NCBI GenBank assembly: GCA_017883235.1
Contig: JADGNY010000034.1
Span: 1-51,651 of the forward strand
Direction of reading: 5' to 3'
Source of the DNA: Thermoanaerobaculia bacterium
GTDB taxonomy: Bacteria > Acidobacteriota > Thermoanaerobaculia > Gp7-AA8
Length of the DNA stretch: 51,651 nt
The stretch's first letter is position 1; every line of letters starts with the position of its first letter. A program made the position numbers and the translations under genes. A model generated the notes under the pieces. That model had not been told where the DNA came from and made no database searches. It saw only the letters and a program-made list of their open reading frames with translations. Of this stretch, positions 1,414-33,630 are shown one piece after another.

Positions 1414-1441
1414 TTGACAACCGCGCAGAGGGCATCATAAT
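1414..1441 (+). promoter_or_regulatory. Predicted sigma70-type promoter of the RiPP cassette
   Basis: A perfect -35 hexamer TTGACA (1414-1419) is followed after 16 bases by CATAAT (1436-1441). Shifting by one base gives ATAATT with a 17-base spacer. It lies 24 bp before the start codon of the Cys-rich precursor gene, which has a G-rich Shine-Dalgarno stretch (GGGGG, 1455-1459). This suggests the cassette is transcribed independently of lnt. Confidence 0.6.
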
Positions 1442-1464: not shown

Positions 1465-1848
1465 ATGGATTTCATCGTCAAAGACCTCATGATCAGCGTA
1501 TTGCCGTTTCGACGGTCCTTGGCCGGTGGTGGTGGCGTAGGCCCTCTGGCCGGATGTGATGCGGGATGTTCGGACTGCTCGACGTGTTCGGGCATGACGA
1601 CCTGTCCGGGAGGCTGCACTGGCGGCACACCGAGACCGAACGACTGGTATTCGCAGATCACCAATCCGATCACGCTTGCGCTCCTCAAGCAGCAGCTTCG
1701 CGAGACGCTGGCAGCCGTTGAAGCGCGAGAGAAGGTCATTCACGATTCGATGCGGCCGACGTCCCCTGCCGAGTTCCAGGTGCTCGAAACACAGCTTGAG
1801 GCTGCCCTCGAAGAAGTGCGGCGTATGTCGCAACAGCACAATCGATAA
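1465..1848 (+). CDS. Putative RiPP (lanthipeptide-like) precursor peptide, Cys/Ser/Thr-rich
   Basis: 127 residues in three parts. Residues 1-30 form a short leader-like stretch that starts MDFIVKDLMISVLP and ends in a Gly-rich run. Residues 31-55 form a core with six Cys (31, 35, 38, 41, 47, 51) interleaved with eight Ser/Thr and several Gly. Residues 57-127 are a charged, probably helical tail rich in Leu, Glu and Gln. The spacing of Cys with Ser/Thr is what thioether-forming substrates look like. The gene sits directly upstream of two predicted lanthionine-type modification enzymes, with 27 bp to the next start. A core placed in the middle with a long C-terminal follower is unusual. The tail could be a recognition or coiled-coil element, or a second peptide fused to the precursor. 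No protease or exporter gene is adjacent. The function is inferred from context and composition. Confidence 0.7.
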   Translation: MDFIVKDLMISVLPFRRSLAGGGGVGPLAGCDAGCSDCSTCSGMTTCPGGCTGGTPRPNDWYSQITNPITLALLKQQLRETLAAVEAREKVIHDSMRPTSPAEFQVLETQLEAALEEVRRMSQQHNR

Positions 1849-1875
1849 GGAGTCAACCGTTAGAGGACCTTGCAC

Positions 1876-3081
1876 GTGAGCGGTCTCGTGTTGAGAGATC
1901 TATCCTGTGCGCGCGTCCGTGCGAACCCGCACTATCGGTTTGCGTCATTCGAGAGTCTGTCCGAGGCTCAGCGCAGCTCCGTGGGGCAAGGCGCTGGAAG
2001 CACGACATTCGCCGGCGTGCTGGCTGACACAGCCGCCGGTGCGCTGAACATCAAAGCGATCTCGCCTGGCACGGCAACCCTGTTCGAGCAGCTCCGCACG
2101 CCGCTCCGCGTCCCGAAGGTCCTCGCCGAATTCGCGCCGCATGAGCGGGATACGATTCTCGCGGGACTGGTGCTCGACGGTGTTCTGGAAATCGCGTGCG
2201 ACGATGGATTCGTAAGCCAATGCAGGGCGTATCGCGCGATCGTTCTCCATGACGACGATCTCGTTGGAACGAGCAAGTTGGCTGTCGCTTCGATCGCGGC
2301 GGTCAAGCACGGACAGCGCCTGGCCATGCGCGATCCCGAGATGCTGGCGGCTCGGCTCTACTTCTATCAGCGGCTACCTGTCACCGCGTCATGGGCCGCC
2401 TTGTGGCCCGACTCATCTACTGTCATGGAGTTTCTCGGTGTGGCGCGGGGCGGCCCGTTCCGTCGGGATCTCCACTCGCAGTTCGCGTGGTCATCACCCG
2501 GGTCGCGACCCGGTGAGGTGCAGTGGCTCTACGCCCACCGCAGACACCGACCCGCGCGGCCTCGCGACGCGAACGGCTGCAAGTTGTACGTCAGCCCGGC
2601 GCCCGAGCACATCAGGCAGGCATTTGCGGAAGTCGTCGCGCTTCTGCCCGCGTCGGGCGCATCGAGCTTCAAGATCGGGCCGAATGCGCACGGCCTGCTG
2701 CGACCTGACAAACTCATCGTGTATTTCGATCGCCATGACGATCTCCTGGCCTTCACGGAGGCGTTGTTGCCGCGACTGGCGCGCCTCTCGGCCCACGGCG
2801 TGCCCTTTACCGCGCCGATCGACGAAGCTGGCCTCCTTTCGTGGGGGATCGATCCGCCACGTCCGGAGACGAAGGTGGGATCGTATGTGGACGACAGCTG
2901 GAGAATCTGGATCTGCAATCGGCTGGCGCTGGCGCTCATCGCCGCCATGGATGACGTCGAAATGGAGCCGTGGCGCTACGCGCTCACGAAGCTCTGGCTT
3001 TCGGGCGTCGACACGCAGACGTGGACGCGGCGACCCACGTCAAGCCTCGATCCGGCGCAGTTGCTGGGAGCCCATGCGTGA
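1876..3081 (+). CDS. HopA1-like (phospho-Ser/Thr lyase-type) RiPP modification protein
   Basis: 401 residues from GTG 1876. This start was chosen because AGAGGA (1862-1867) is 8 bases upstream; a TTG at 1870 is too close to that site. The C-terminal half carries the pattern I associate with HopA1-family proteins: KLYVSP near residue 236, FKIG near 265, RPDKLIVYF near 276 and AHGVPF near 308. In class V lanthipeptide clusters a HopA1-like protein eliminates phosphate from phosphorylated Ser/Thr to give dehydroamino acids. The N-terminal third (around residues 30-125) reads like a small winged-helix, PqqD-type peptide-recognition fold. The stop overlaps the next gene by 4 bases (GTGA), indicating translational coupling to the kinase-cyclase. 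The family call comes from remembered motifs and is not from a search. Confidence 0.65.
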   Translation: MSGLVLRDLSCARVRANPHYRFASFESLSEAQRSSVGQGAGSTTFAGVLADTAAGALNIKAISPGTATLFEQLRTPLRVPKVLAEFAPHERDTILAGLVLDGVLEIACDDGFVSQCRAYRAIVLHDDDLVGTSKLAVASIAAVKHGQRLAMRDPEMLAARLYFYQRLPVTASWAALWPDSSTVMEFLGVARGGPFRRDLHSQFAWSSPGSRPGEVQWLYAHRRHRPARPRDANGCKLYVSPAPEHIRQAFAEVVALLPASGASSFKIGPNAHGLLRPDKLIVYFDRHDDLLAFTEALLPRLARLSAHGVPFTAPIDEAGLLSWGIDPPRPETKVGSYVDDSWRIWICNRLALALIAAMDDVEMEPWRYALTKLWLSGVDTQTWTRRPTSSLDPAQLLGAHA

Positions 3082-5462
3082 GCATCACCGGGCCGATGGT
3101 CCTGCCAGCCGATCTGCTCATCATCCCGGCTAGCGATGTCGGGGAAGCCATTCGGCTGCGATGTGACTGCCAGGAGGGGGACTTTGTCGTGACCCGTCCA
3201 CGCTCGCGCACGCAGTCGCGCGTGGTCAATGGAGAAACGGCGACCCTACTCGAGCTCTTCCGCCAGCCGAAAACCATCGTCGAGGCTGTGTTGACCTTGT
3301 GCCTGGCGCGAGTGACGGACCCTGAGCGCACTCTCGAGCAGGCATTCGCGACGCTTGGCCCGTTCATACAGGCGCGGTGGCTCGTGCCCGCCGATTCCGA
3401 AGAGGCACAGCAGATTGCGTCTACGCTCGCGTCTGGCGACGTGGTCGACGGTTACACGATCGGGGACTGCAGGCAACTCCTTGAGGACACCGAGGTCTAT
3501 TACGTCCATTCCAAAGATAACGTGCCGGCAGCGCTGAAATTGATCCGGTTCGGAGCACCGGCCAGCGTGGATGCATTGTTCACGCAGGAGGCGCGCGTTC
3601 TCAGCCAGGTCGATGGTGTGCCGGCACCACGGTTGCTCTCAACCGGTATTCTGGATGGCCAGCGGTTTCTGGTCTTGACGTGGTGCGCCGGAGTCACGGT
3701 GACTCAGGCCGCGAGAGAGGTGCGCCAGGTTCACGGCACGGGTGGCCCGGGACACCTCCTCGCCCTCTGCCGCGCGATCGTTAGTGCCTATGTGACGCTC
3801 CATGAGAAAGGGGTCATCCACGGAGATGTCTATCCGAGGAACATTCTTGTGGATGCCATGGGCCAGGTGTCGATCGTGGACTATGGCTACGCGCATCTGA
3901 TCAACGACAACCACAAGGCTGCCGTGCCACGTGGCGGGGTCGCGGAATTCCATGAACCGGAATTTGCGGCGGCCTCGTTGGAAGGGCGGCCACGGCCGCT
4001 GCCGAGCGTTGCCGGAGAGCAATACGCGCTTGCGGCCTTGTTATATTCGCTCGTCACCGGAGAGTCGTATCTGCGATTCTCGGCGGTCAAGCAGGAGGTG
4101 CTGCGGCAAATCGTCGAGGATCGGCCGCTGGCGTTTGCAGAGCATGGACTTCCCGCATGGCCGAGTCTCGAGACAGTGCTCGCGAAAGCGCTCGACAAGA
4201 ATCCGCAGCAGCGTTTCTTCTCGGTCAGAGAGCTCCTCTTGGCGCTCCAGGCCGTGGACGCGCCGGAAATAAAGGTCACGTCCTCGACGCGACGGAGCGC
4301 AGCACGCGAAGCGTGCAAGGATCTGATCGCGCGGCTCGACGCCGAGGCCACCCCCGCATTCAGATTGCCGGCCGGCCTCCCTCAGAGCTCGATCACGTAC
4401 GGTGCCGCCGGCGTGGCCTATGCGCTGTACGCCCTTGCGTGTATGCGAGGGGAGGCGGCGCTGCTTGCCGCCGCCGACGCATGGGCGGTACACGCGGTAC
4501 GCATGGCCGATCAGCCCGGCGCGTTTGTGACCGATCAACTCGATCTCGACGAGCACCGCGTCGGTCCATCGTCGGTTTATTACGGTCGCGCGGGTGTGCA
4601 CATGGTCCAGGCGCTCATCGCGCATGCCATGGGTGATGAGGTCACGTTCACCCGAGCGCTGAGGGGTTATCTTGCGGCGTGTCGGGAGCCGTGTGAGTGG
4701 CGCGACTTGACACTGGGCCGCGCTGGCGTCCTGCTCGGATGCGCGCTGCTGCTCGATGCCATAGGACCGGCGTTGTCACGCGCAACCGCCGATCATCCGG
4801 TGCGCCAACTTGTCGATATGGGACAGTCCACGCTGGACGCGATTTGCGCGGCAGCAAATCACGAGTCGTTCAACGGTATGAAGTCCCTGGGAATGGCCCA
4901 TGGATGGGCGGGCCTCTGTTACGCGGCGCTCCTGTGGTCGGAGGTTCGCGGAAGTGTTCCTCCTGCGCCCGTGCGCACGACACTCGAGAGGCTGTTGACG
5001 CTGGCGCAGAGCCACGGGCGCGGAGTCCGATGGCCGACCGATATTCCTGGTGATCAAGGTCCGCATCGCGCCACGTATATGGAGAGCTGGTGCCACGGCA
5101 CTCCTGGGTACGTCCCATTGTGGACGGCGGCATATCGTTCGTTTGGAGATACGCGCTACCTGCAGATCGCCGAGCACGCCGCGTGGACCACATGGGAAGC
5201 GCCGGAGTCGCTCGGCAGTCTCTGCTGTGGCGATGCAGGCCGCGCCTATGCGCTGCTGAATCTGTTCCGTCACACGGGCGATCGGGAGTGGGCGCTGCGA
5301 GCGGCCGCGCTGGCGGAGCGGGCGGTGGAGGTTTGCACGCGGGAGCCACGCCCTCTGTCCTACTCGCTCTTCAAAGGCACGCTCGGCGCGGCCGTGCTCA
5401 TGGAAGAGCTCCATCAACCCGATCGAGCGGCGTTTCCGCTCTTCGAGCGGACCAACACATGA
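3078..5462 (+). CDS. Kinase plus LanC-like cyclase fusion (lanthionine synthetase-type)
   Basis: 794 residues from GTG 3078, which overlaps the upstream stop. The same frame is open further upstream, but that stretch lies inside the previous gene. Order of parts: a PqqD-like N-terminal region (about 1-120); a Ser/Thr-kinase-like domain with Lys in ALKLIR (about 153), catalytic loop HGDVYPRN (about 247) and metal motif DYG (about 267); and a LanC-type alpha-toroid from about 420. In the cyclase, AHGWAG (about 605) supplies the catalytic His. SWCHGTPG (about 671) and LCCGDAG (about 714) supply three Cys that could bind zinc in the CCG form rather than CHG. There is no lyase domain between or before these parts, so that step probably falls to the HopA1-like neighbour. 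Expected role: phosphorylate Ser/Thr of the precursor, then close thioether rings. Confidence 0.8.
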   Translation: MSITGPMVLPADLLIIPASDVGEAIRLRCDCQEGDFVVTRPRSRTQSRVVNGETATLLELFRQPKTIVEAVLTLCLARVTDPERTLEQAFATLGPFIQARWLVPADSEEAQQIASTLASGDVVDGYTIGDCRQLLEDTEVYYVHSKDNVPAALKLIRFGAPASVDALFTQEARVLSQVDGVPAPRLLSTGILDGQRFLVLTWCAGVTVTQAAREVRQVHGTGGPGHLLALCRAIVSAYVTLHEKGVIHGDVYPRNILVDAMGQVSIVDYGYAHLINDNHKAAVPRGGVAEFHEPEFAAASLEGRPRPLPSVAGEQYALAALLYSLVTGESYLRFSAVKQEVLRQIVEDRPLAFAEHGLPAWPSLETVLAKALDKNPQQRFFSVRELLLALQAVDAPEIKVTSSTRRSAAREACKDLIARLDAEATPAFRLPAGLPQSSITYGAAGVAYALYALACMRGEAALLAAADAWAVHAVRMADQPGAFVTDQLDLDEHRVGPSSVYYGRAGVHMVQALIAHAMGDEVTFTRALRGYLAACREPCEWRDLTLGRAGVLLGCALLLDAIGPALSRATADHPVRQLVDMGQSTLDAICAAANHESFNGMKSLGMAHGWAGLCYAALLWSEVRGSVPPAPVRTTLERLLTLAQSHGRGVRWPTDIPGDQGPHRATYMESWCHGTPGYVPLWTAAYRSFGDTRYLQIAEHAAWTTWEAPESLGSLCCGDAGRAYALLNLFRHTGDREWALRAAALAERAVEVCTREPRPLSYSLFKGTLGAAVLMEELHQPDRAAFPLFERTNT

Positions 5463-6788: not shown

Positions 6789-8278
6789 TGGGTATCGCGG
6801 GAGTCGGGAGTCGGGAGTCGGGGGTCGGAGCGAGAGTGGCGTTGTTCTCGCCGCTGCCGCCGACTCGAACCGGCGTCGCGCACTACGCGTCGATGCTTCT
6901 CCCCGAGCTCCGCAAGCATCTCGATGTCATCGCCATCTCCGACCCCCGACCCCCGACTCCCGACCCCCGAATTTACTTCCTCGGCAACAACCCTCACCAC
7001 GCCTGGATCTACGAGGAAGCGATGCGTACTCCGGGCGTCGTCGTTCTGCACGACCTCGTGCTCCATCACCTCATCGTCGAGATGACGCTGGCGCGCGGTG
7101 ATGTCGATGGGTACGTTGCCGCGCTCGAGGCGAATCATGGCCAGGCAGGGGCGGCGTGGGCGCGGGGACGGGCGGCGGGACTCCACAGCGAGATGGGGAA
7201 CTTCCTGATGCCGGCCTCGGTCGACGTAGCCAATCGCTCGCGCGCTGTGATCGTGCACAACCGCTACGCCGCCGATCGATTGCGGTCGTTCGGTGTCACG
7301 ACGCCCATTCATGTCGTTCCGCATCCATTCGAGCCGCAGCCTTCGACGCGCGGACGCCGGGATGAGATACGGGCGAAGCATGGCTTCGCGGCGGACGATC
7401 GCGTCATCGGACTCTTCGGGTTTCTCACCTCGGCAAAACGCGCCGAGGTTGTGCTCGCGGCGTTCGCGTCGGCGCGTGGGCGGGAAGAACGGCTGCGGCT
7501 GCTCGTCGTCGGCGAGCCCGCGCCGAACGTCGACGTCGACGCCCTGCGCGGCGACGGCATCACCTTCACCGGCTACGTCGCGGACGACGAGTTTGCCGCC
7601 TACTTTGCCGCGGTCGATCGCCTCGTCAACCTGCGCTACCCGAGCGCGGGGGAGACGTCGGGAACGTTGATCCGCGCCTTCGAAGCCGGCAAACCGGTCG
7701 CGGTCAGCGACTACGCGCAGTTCGCGGAGTTTCCCGACGACTGTGTGGTGAAGATTCCGTTCGGCGACGGCGAGGTAGCGGCGCTGGCCGATTTCTTCGT
7801 GCGCTCGCTTCCCGATCCTTCCACGGCGCAGGCGGCGTGGCTACGCGAAAATGCCTCGATGGAGCTGACCGTCCGAGGCTATCTCGCCGCGCTGGACGAC
7901 GTATCGAGAGTGCCGATCGCTCCCGTCACGCGAACGATTCCGCTCTTTCCGCAGCTCCACGCAACGCTGCGCGATGACGCCGTGGTGCTGCGCAACTCCG
8001 GCGACTTCACCATACGCACGCGAAGCTACGGACAACCGGGATACCGGCTGATGATGCTGCTCTTCAACGGTGAGACGGTGATCGACGACCGCTGGGTCGA
8101 ACTGCCGCGCGATCTGCGCCCGGGCGATACCGCCGAGGTCGCGATCCCGCGCGTCGAGGGAACGCTTCGGCTCTACCACGCCATCGACGGGATTCCGATC
8201 GTTGTGGCGGAGCCGTTCGCGGAGTTTGAACGGGTGTCGGGTGTCGGGAGTCGGGAGTCGGGCGCCGCCCATGTCTGA
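6788..8278 (+). CDS. GT4-type glycosyltransferase with repeat-encoded insertions
   Basis: 496 residues, GT-B fold. The N-terminal domain starts VALFSPLPPTRTGVAHY, as in GT4 enzymes that act on sugar-nucleotide donors. The C-terminal domain has IGLFGFLTSAKR and the donor-site region GETSGTLIRAFEAGKPVAVSD. A C-terminal extension of about 120 residues follows, possibly a beta-rich binding domain. The start ATG overlaps the prfB stop. Two parts of the protein are encoded by arms of a heptanucleotide inverted repeat: residues 5-14 (GVGSRESGVG) right after the start, and a Pro/Asp-rich stretch (DPRPPTPDPR) near residue 55. The C-terminal tail comes from a second such repeat. The insertions keep the frame. 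The acceptor substrate cannot be told from sequence. Confidence 0.85.
   Translation: MGIAGVGSRESGVGARVALFSPLPPTRTGVAHYASMLLPELRKHLDVIAISDPRPPTPDPRIYFLGNNPHHAWIYEEAMRTPGVVVLHDLVLHHLIVEMTLARGDVDGYVAALEANHGQAGAAWARGRAAGLHSEMGNFLMPASVDVANRSRAVIVHNRYAADRLRSFGVTTPIHVVPHPFEPQPSTRGRRDEIRAKHGFAADDRVIGLFGFLTSAKRAEVVLAAFASARGREERLRLLVVGEPAPNVDVDALRGDGITFTGYVADDEFAAYFAAVDRLVNLRYPSAGETSGTLIRAFEAGKPVAVSDYAQFAEFPDDCVVKIPFGDGEVAALADFFVRSLPDPSTAQAAWLRENASMELTVRGYLAALDDVSRVPIAPVTRTIPLFPQLHATLRDDAVVLRNSGDFTIRTRSYGQPGYRLMMLLFNGETVIDDRWVELPRDLRPGDTAEVAIPRVEGTLRLYHAIDGIPIVVAEPFAEFERVSGVGSRESGAAHV
6799..6970. repeat. Heptanucleotide inverted repeat inside a coding gene
   Basis: The left arm (6799-6828) is a tandem run of GGGAGTC. 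The right arm (6937-6970) is the reverse complement (GACCCCC/GACTCCC units), 108 bp downstream. Both arms lie within the glycosyltransferase frame. Confidence 0.8.
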
Positions 8279-8319
8279 TCTCCGACCCCCGACCCCCGGC
8301 TCCCGACCCCCGGCTCCCC
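8231..8319. repeat. Heptanucleotide hairpin spanning a stop/start junction
   Basis: The left arm (8231-8263) has GGGTGTC and GGGAGTC units and encodes the tail of the glycosyltransferase. The right arm (8279-8319) has complementary GACCCCC/GGCTCCC units and encodes the first residues of the NUDIX protein. The 15-base loop contains the NUDIX start codon (8271) and the glycosyltransferase stop (8276-8278). Confidence 0.8.
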
Positions 8320-21425: not shown

Positions 21426-21593
21426 GCAAACCCAGGTTTGCCGATGTCAAGTCGAGGCTTGAGCTCGTCAAGCCTCGACTTGACTTTCTCAAGCCTCGAC
21501 TTGACGCCGTCAAACCTCGACTTGAATTCGGCAAACCTGGACTTGAAGTTCTCAAGCCTCGACTTGAATTCGGCAAACCTGGGCTTGTCGATT
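21426..21593. repeat. 21-bp palindromic tandem array, locus 1 (about 8 units)
   Basis: About eight units of exactly 21 bp. Each is a short inverted repeat: GGCAAAC with GTTTGCC, or GTCAAG with CTTGAC, around a 4-6-base centre (CCTCGA, CCTGGA). Arms differ between units but tend to stay complementary within a unit. Because 21 is a multiple of three, both strands are open and would read as heptapeptide repeats such as KPRLEF(G/V). No ribosome site supports translation. Confidence 0.85.
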
Positions 21594-33336: not shown

Positions 33337-33369
33337 TGGCGGCCTTTGCTCGAAAGCTCGCCGGTCGCC

Positions 33370-33630
33370 GTCAATCGAAAGTCGATTGATGTCAATCGAA
33401 AGTCGATCGATGGGGATCAAAAATTGATCCCTGTCGATCAAGAGTCGATCGATGGGGATCAAAAATCGATCCCTTTCGATCAAAAGTCGATCGACATCAA
33501 TCAAGAGTTGATTGACGTCGATCAAAAGTCGATTGACATCGATCAAAAGTCGATTGACATCGATCAAAAGTTGATTGACGTCAATCAAGAGTCGACCGAC
33601 GTCGATCAAGAGTTGATTGAAATCGATTGA
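33370..33630. repeat. 21-bp palindromic tandem array, locus 2 (about 12 units)
   Basis: Twelve units of 21 bp, each with short complementary arms around an A-rich centre: GTCAATC/GATTGAC, GGGGATC/GATCCCT, GTCGATC/GATCGAT. Arm changes are often compensated within the unit. Open on both strands, it would read as heptapeptides like DQKSIDI or NRLLIDV. The sequence is unrelated to locus 1 but has the same period and layout. It starts 34 bp after the toxin gene. Confidence 0.9.

Follow-up and report, generated by a model that had tools for sequence, protein, structure and literature searches.

We report a cassette of three consecutive genes on the forward strand of a 51,651-nucleotide stretch of DNA from a Thermoanaerobaculia bacterium (GenBank JADGNY010000034.1, positions 1–51,651; hereafter the window) that very probably (about 0.8) constitutes a minimal lanthipeptide system with an undescribed division of labour. 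A lyase resembling that of class V is encoded separately from a kinase-cyclase resembling that of class IV, and the latter carries a recognition element of the kind that binds leaders of ribosomally synthesized and post-translationally modified peptides (RiPPs), termed a RiPP recognition element (RRE). This reading draws on the domains and folds of the proteins, their conserved active sites, the linkage of the genes and the conservation of the precursor. The initial annotation of this DNA, which worked from the sequence and its open reading frames (ORFs), had placed three ORFs at 1465–5462 and proposed a lanthipeptide-like cassette falling between known layouts, in which the lyase is separate and kinase and cyclase are fused; the ORFs confirm these coordinates, and fold, active sites, precursor conservation and linkage across phyla uphold the proposal. 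Beyond that annotation, our analysis identified an RRE-like domain on the kinase-cyclase, its homologue on the lyase and a follower in the precursor.

The lyase, the kinase-cyclase and their N-terminal domains

The middle gene (from 1870 with a TTG start or 1876 with a GTG start to 3081) encodes P0002, assigned as a stand-alone phospho-Ser/Thr lyase of the LanY/HopA1 fold using an AlphaFold model, Foldseek and VIA-align. P0002 returned no significant match in Pfam (HopA1 included), NCBIfam or the sequences of the PDB, and neither the lyase sequence nor its profile recovered a relative when searched against PDB sequences; its homology therefore rests on fold together with weak matches of its relatives: of 15, two reach HopA1 (PF17914, E 1.5e-4 at best) and three reach RamC_N (E 0.0016 at best). 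The earlier description of this protein as HopA1-like thus holds for its fold and, weakly, for PF17914 in those two relatives, and fails as a direct Pfam profile match. Structure prediction, which the initial annotation had suggested as a check, produced a model built on the 15 relatives (predicted local distance difference test (pLDDT) 84, predicted template modelling score 0.85) that matches LxmY, HopA1 and the lyase domains of classes III and IV. LxmY, the class V lyase, ranks first (Foldseek E 2e-6; 231 residues aligned at Z 14.5), ahead of HopA1 (Z 13.7), the CuvL and ThurKC lyase domains (Z ~13) and OspF/SpvC (Z 9–11), with unrelated eIF4E chains next in the list at Z ~7. Within the lyase domain (2257–3039, the range of the structural alignment), the candidate catalytic residues are K238, K268, R278 and Y285, chosen by conservation and by CaoY spacing. 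K268 and R278 are invariant and Y285 near-invariant among the relatives, and their spacing (10 and 7 residues) equals that of CaoY K219, R229 and Y236, the first two of which have been shown to matter (PMC9486802). K238, 30 residues before K268, would by its spacing stand for SpvC Lys104, the counterpart of CaoY Arg187.

The third gene (GTG at 3078 to 5462) encodes P0003, a protein of 794 residues delineated from its ORF, Pfam, NCBIfam and an alignment of relatives. It had been read as a kinase plus a LanC-like protein, and both domains indeed exceed the curated Pfam cut-offs: a Ser/Thr kinase domain at 3501–4217 (PF00069, 55.3 bits, vs 27.6 for APH) with K154, E171, an HGD motif containing D250, N255 and a DYG motif containing D268, and a LanC cyclase domain at 4389–5444 (PF05147, 117.8 bits, E 5e-34) that is nearly full length, covering profile positions 6–348 of 350. 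The kinase residues K154, E171, H248, D250, N255 and D268 are invariant in all 40 aligned relatives, as are Cys672 (WCHG) and Cys716-Cys717 (CCG) of the zinc site (5091–5228), and the zinc set is therefore Cys-Cys-Cys. The nearest NCBIfam model is class IV LanL (NF038150), at 173.3 bits against a cut-off of 650; this match begins at profile position 239, past the lyase part, leaving the LanL lyase part without a counterpart in P0003. Scores for class III LanKC (NF038151, 82.5 bits, cut-off 575) and class II LanM (TIGR03897, 57.7 bits, cut-off 304, the LanC part alone matching) likewise lie below threshold.

The first 120 residues of P0003 matched no family, and Pfam and NCBIfam gave no PqqD or RRE hit for the kinase-cyclases. 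A model of this region (3090–3395, pLDDT 83) has three strands followed by helices, the winged-helix fold of RREs, which comprises three strands and three helices, and its top structural matches are RREs: TigE (Z 10.2), TbiB1 with leader (10.0), lasso B1 (9.1), PqqD (9.0), MccB (8.8) and NisB (8.6). With modest E-values from Foldseek (3e-3 at best), the assignment relies on how consistent this list is; on the modelled structure, the kinase-cyclase N-terminus is an RRE-like domain in place of the lyase, and leader binding is predicted for it. The N-terminus of the lyase (1924–2199) appears homologous to this domain by hhalign (probability 95.8, E 7.4e-9). At a Cupriavidus locus (L061:6924-8057), the gene between the lyase and an inverted kinase-cyclase fuses the same RRE-like domain to a 2OG-Fe(II) (2-oxoglutarate- and iron-dependent) oxygenase, likely a tailoring hydroxylase, and in a second Cupriavidus species (L106:6549-7622) the gene at this position again has an RRE-like N-terminus. 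One docking domain common to three enzymes is what a shared precursor predicts.

Among 149 genomes from this bacterial class, 14 contain a relative of the lyase, and an alignment-based scan located 58 further loci in GTDB species; a scan of genome contigs with the single lyase sequence had found nothing. All 58 loci contain a kinase-cyclase match, complete or truncated where the contig stops, which lies nearly always directly 3' of the lyase (exceptions being a gap in L050, the inversion in L061 and fragments in L086), with 42 of 44 measured gaps falling within 50 nt. Record titles assign the loci to ~13 phyla, some from metagenome bins with uncertain labels. In the kinase-cyclase tree, the nearest neighbour of the window protein comes from Microbacterium rhizomatis, an actinobacterium (99 in the Shimodaira–Hasegawa-like approximate likelihood ratio test, SH-aLRT), and phyla are interleaved throughout, a pattern that agrees with horizontal transfer without proving it. 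In RefSeq, the Paenibacillus copies are annotated as “lanthionine synthetase LanC family protein” and “hypothetical protein”. Large ORFs with an extra Ser/Thr kinase domain adjoin the cassette at several loci (L026:3433-7041, L029:2864-6790, L034:653-3475, L043:2526-5135 and others).

These data also bear on whether we are observing an ordinary class III or IV synthetase whose gene has merely been split between lyase and kinase. Such an origin would fit the proximity of the kinase-cyclase to LanL in NCBIfam (173 bits) and the lyase fold common to CuvL and ThurKC; we nevertheless consider it unlikely, given that an RRE-like domain occupies the lyase's place, that the lyase aligns over ~230 residues with LxmY and HopA1 vs ~150 with CuvL and ThurKC, that the zinc set comprises three cysteines, and that the layout is constant across the labelled phyla, which argues against a recent break.

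A precursor with a conserved leader and follower

The first gene (1465–1848, 127 residues) is assigned as the precursor from its ORF and from leave-one-out leader and follower scores. Its sequence runs, in successive excerpts, MDFIVKDLMISVLPFRR...AGCDAGCSDCSTCSGMTTCPGGCTGG...NPITLALLKQQLRETLAAVEARE..., and it is rich in Cys, Ser and Thr as originally described (6, 9 and 10 residues, respectively). Three segments can be delineated: a leader (MDFIVKDLMISVLPF, 1465–1509) conserved 5' of lyase genes with the consensus F-x-V/I-K/R-D-L-M-I/V-x-V-x-P; a putative core (GCDAGCSDCSTCSGMTTCPGGCTGG, 1549–1632; ends guessed) with six Cys among Ser and Thr, drawn from the sequence and an alignment with 17 relatives; and a C-terminal helical follower (1645–1845) recognized by a hidden Markov model (HMM) of followers from other loci. 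The genes had also been described as all translationally linked, which applies to the enzyme pair (a 4-nt overlap, GTGA) and not to the precursor, separated from the lyase by 21–27 nt depending on which of the two candidate lyase starts is used, i.e. by close spacing merely.

Conservation of the leader was evaluated with a strict pattern, which matched 29 times in the 58 kb preceding lyase genes vs 4 times in 1.38 Mb elsewhere, and with a weight matrix that excludes the window's own sequence, scores its precursor at 34.4 bits and detects 39 of the 59 loci having enough upstream sequence. The matrix has six matches elsewhere, several of them precursor-like ORFs beside or within mis-called lyase starts. 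Because pattern and matrix derive from these loci themselves, circularity is avoided only in the score of the window and in the contrast between positions. Furthermore, the follower forms a second conserved block of 60 C-terminal residues, and an HMM built without the window scores the window follower at 59.1 bits. Together with the occurrence of the enzyme pair in 58 other loci, these window-free scores indicate that the cassette is more than a chance arrangement.

Precursors across the loci contain 1 to 33 Cys. On a Paenibacillus peoriae plasmid (L105:8041-8793), one precursor consists of three tandem leader-core-follower units, with a core of about DCGITCLASCGLFSVGG, which supports the segmentation above. 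Two tandem precursors precede the lyase gene in L049, L050 and L028, reaching 33 Cys in L049 and 28 in L050. Within the host genome we found no further precursor (next best E 0.87), and a prochlorosin-like spread of substrates is therefore not seen.

Cysteine content, proposed chemistry and surroundings

Five full-length kinase-cyclases (L088, L089, L090, L094 and L095) have lost the zinc cysteines, and the two of them that were scanned show no LANC_like match at 0.01. Precursors at these five loci contain exactly one Cys each, and those at 33 loci with an intact site contain 2–28, a relation that fits Cys being the substrate of the cyclase. The raw comparison including truncated proteins gives p = 0.03; with four kinase-cyclases that are cut by contig ends or split set aside, separation is complete (33 vs 5; ~2e-6 by counting arrangements). 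The zinc-less sub-family occurs in Nitrosomonas, Sphingomonas, Phenylobacterium and Neoroseomonas; its cyclase domain is degenerate, and its precursors carry PTPISP-type motifs.

That sub-family, with no zinc site and one Cys per precursor, implies that the dehydratase part can be kept alone, and hence raises the option that the window product is phosphorylated and dehydrated without becoming a lanthipeptide (e.g. a peptide with dehydroalanine (Dha) or dehydrobutyrine (Dhb), another crosslink, or partial cyclization). We regard this as quite improbable for the window, whose enzyme keeps the three zinc Cys and whose precursor has six core Cys. An origin outside peptide modification may also be contemplated: LanC-like domains can have non-lanthipeptide roles, and the genes could form a signalling or regulatory cassette in which a kinase with a LanC-like domain accompanies an unrelated Cys-rich protein, as might be argued from the other Ser/Thr kinases adjoining some cassettes and from the lack of a conserved protease or transporter. 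The RRE fold, the conserved position of the leader, the tandem leader-core-follower units in Paenibacillus, the RRE-oxygenase in Cupriavidus and the match between Cys number and zinc site all speak against it, and we judge it very improbable.

Under the lanthipeptide reading, every reaction step below is inferred, as are leader binding, the follower's role, the ring pattern and what becomes of the product. The leader would be bound by the RRE at the kinase-cyclase N-terminus and probably also by the homologous domain of the lyase; the kinase domain would phosphorylate Ser and Thr of the core, from which the separate lyase of HopA1/LxmY fold would eliminate phosphate to give Dha and Dhb; and core Cys thiols would be added by the LanC domain, whose zinc site has three Cys, yielding (methyl)lanthionines. 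The conserved follower may serve as a second recognition or scaffolding element. If this is correct, many phyla possess one more enzyme layout for lanthionine formation, combining class IV- and class V-like parts with an RRE, and precursors with 20–33 Cys would be very large lanthipeptides. How the work is divided among the parts is directly open to experiment, thanks to the separately encoded lyase, the RREs and the sub-family in which the zinc site was naturally lost. More speculatively, the loci may represent a separate, widespread lanthipeptide class in which leader and follower bracket the precursor and are read by two related RREs, one on each enzyme, so that the kinase-cyclase and the lyase assemble on the substrate; since no dedicated protease or exporter accompanies the cassette, its product might be a thioether-stapled small protein, not a short secreted peptide.

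Several observations weigh against a lanthipeptide assignment. P0002 itself fails the Pfam HopA1 model, and a protease or transporter conserved beside the cassette was sought among its neighbours and none was found. About one third of the loci lack an upstream ORF above the leader threshold, several of these holding divergent candidates. The Cys and zinc comparison, moreover, is post hoc, omits the four truncated or split proteins and is phylogenetically clustered, such that the five exceptions may be one lineage.

As judged from their translations, an apolipoprotein N-acyltransferase-like gene lies 5' of the cassette and a peptide chain release factor 2-like gene 3' of it; the cassette therefore stands alone amid housekeeping genes. 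A consensus scan located a candidate promoter-like site (TTGACA-16-CATAAT, 1414–1441, forward strand) 23 nt before the precursor start; it agrees at 11 of 12 consensus positions, and two such sites occur in the region vs 0.7 expected, by consensus match alone. An Rfam search of the window gave no match. Elsewhere in the window are tandem repeats of a 63-nt unit (21458–21587, ~2 copies) and a 21-nt unit (33365–33617, 12 copies), and short heptamer arrays of the CGGGAGT/CCGACCC type (6798–6828, 6939–6970, 8231–8262 and 8288–8318) at both ends of a gene at ~6790–8280.

Comparison with known lanthipeptide classes

In the open-access literature we found no class VII lanthipeptide, RRE plus kinase plus LanC, or HopA1 plus LanC system matching the cassette, and no published case of a kinase-LanC protein that carries an RRE; because subscription journals lay outside this search, priority is uncertain. 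Kinase fusions go unmentioned in the text of a 2025 RRE survey (PMC12710340). In a genome survey from 2020, ORFs longer than 120 residues were excluded as candidate precursors, and any kinase-LanC protein would have been assigned to class III/IV (PMC7268733), which could explain how the cassette was overlooked.

The closest parallels lie in classes V and IV. Class V systems (LanK/LanY/LanX; cacaoidin, lexapeptide) share the separate lyase of HopA1/LxmY fold and the K268/R278/Y285 spacing of CaoY, although CaoY has Arg187 where, by spacing, the cassette lyase has K238. Class V, however, employs three separate proteins and an APH-like kinase, a layout absent here, where a Pkinase-type kinase is fused to LanC with an RRE. 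Class IV LanL (VenL, CuvL) likewise places a Ser/Thr kinase before a zinc LanC domain and provides the best NCBIfam match, but in the cassette the lyase is missing from the chain, an RRE takes its place, and the zinc set is Cys-Cys-Cys, unlike the Cys-Cys-His ligands of classes I and IV and like those of ProcM-type LanM (PMC11251773). With the latter, a class II enzyme, the cassette shares its CCG motif and highly variable cores, whereas the lipid-kinase-fold dehydratase (DUF4135) of LanM is absent. In class III LanKC (ThurKC) and class VI LanKCb, kinase, lyase and LanC-like functions also act together; LanKC, however, is a single chain without zinc ligands, in contrast to the invariant zinc Cys of the cassette, and LanKCb is a single chain combining a kinase with truncated lyase and cyclase, described in Streptococcus only (PMC10676316, PMC12328550), whereas here the lyase is separate and LanC nearly full length. 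The modelled RRE fold, placed at the kinase-cyclase N-terminus, is that of RRE-dependent RiPP systems (PqqD, TbiB1, NisB). The defining features of classes II, III, IV and VI are thus lacking, and from class V the cassette has the separate lyase fold and lacks the three-protein layout; our best reading is that it stands outside classes II to VI and functions as a class IV/V hybrid.
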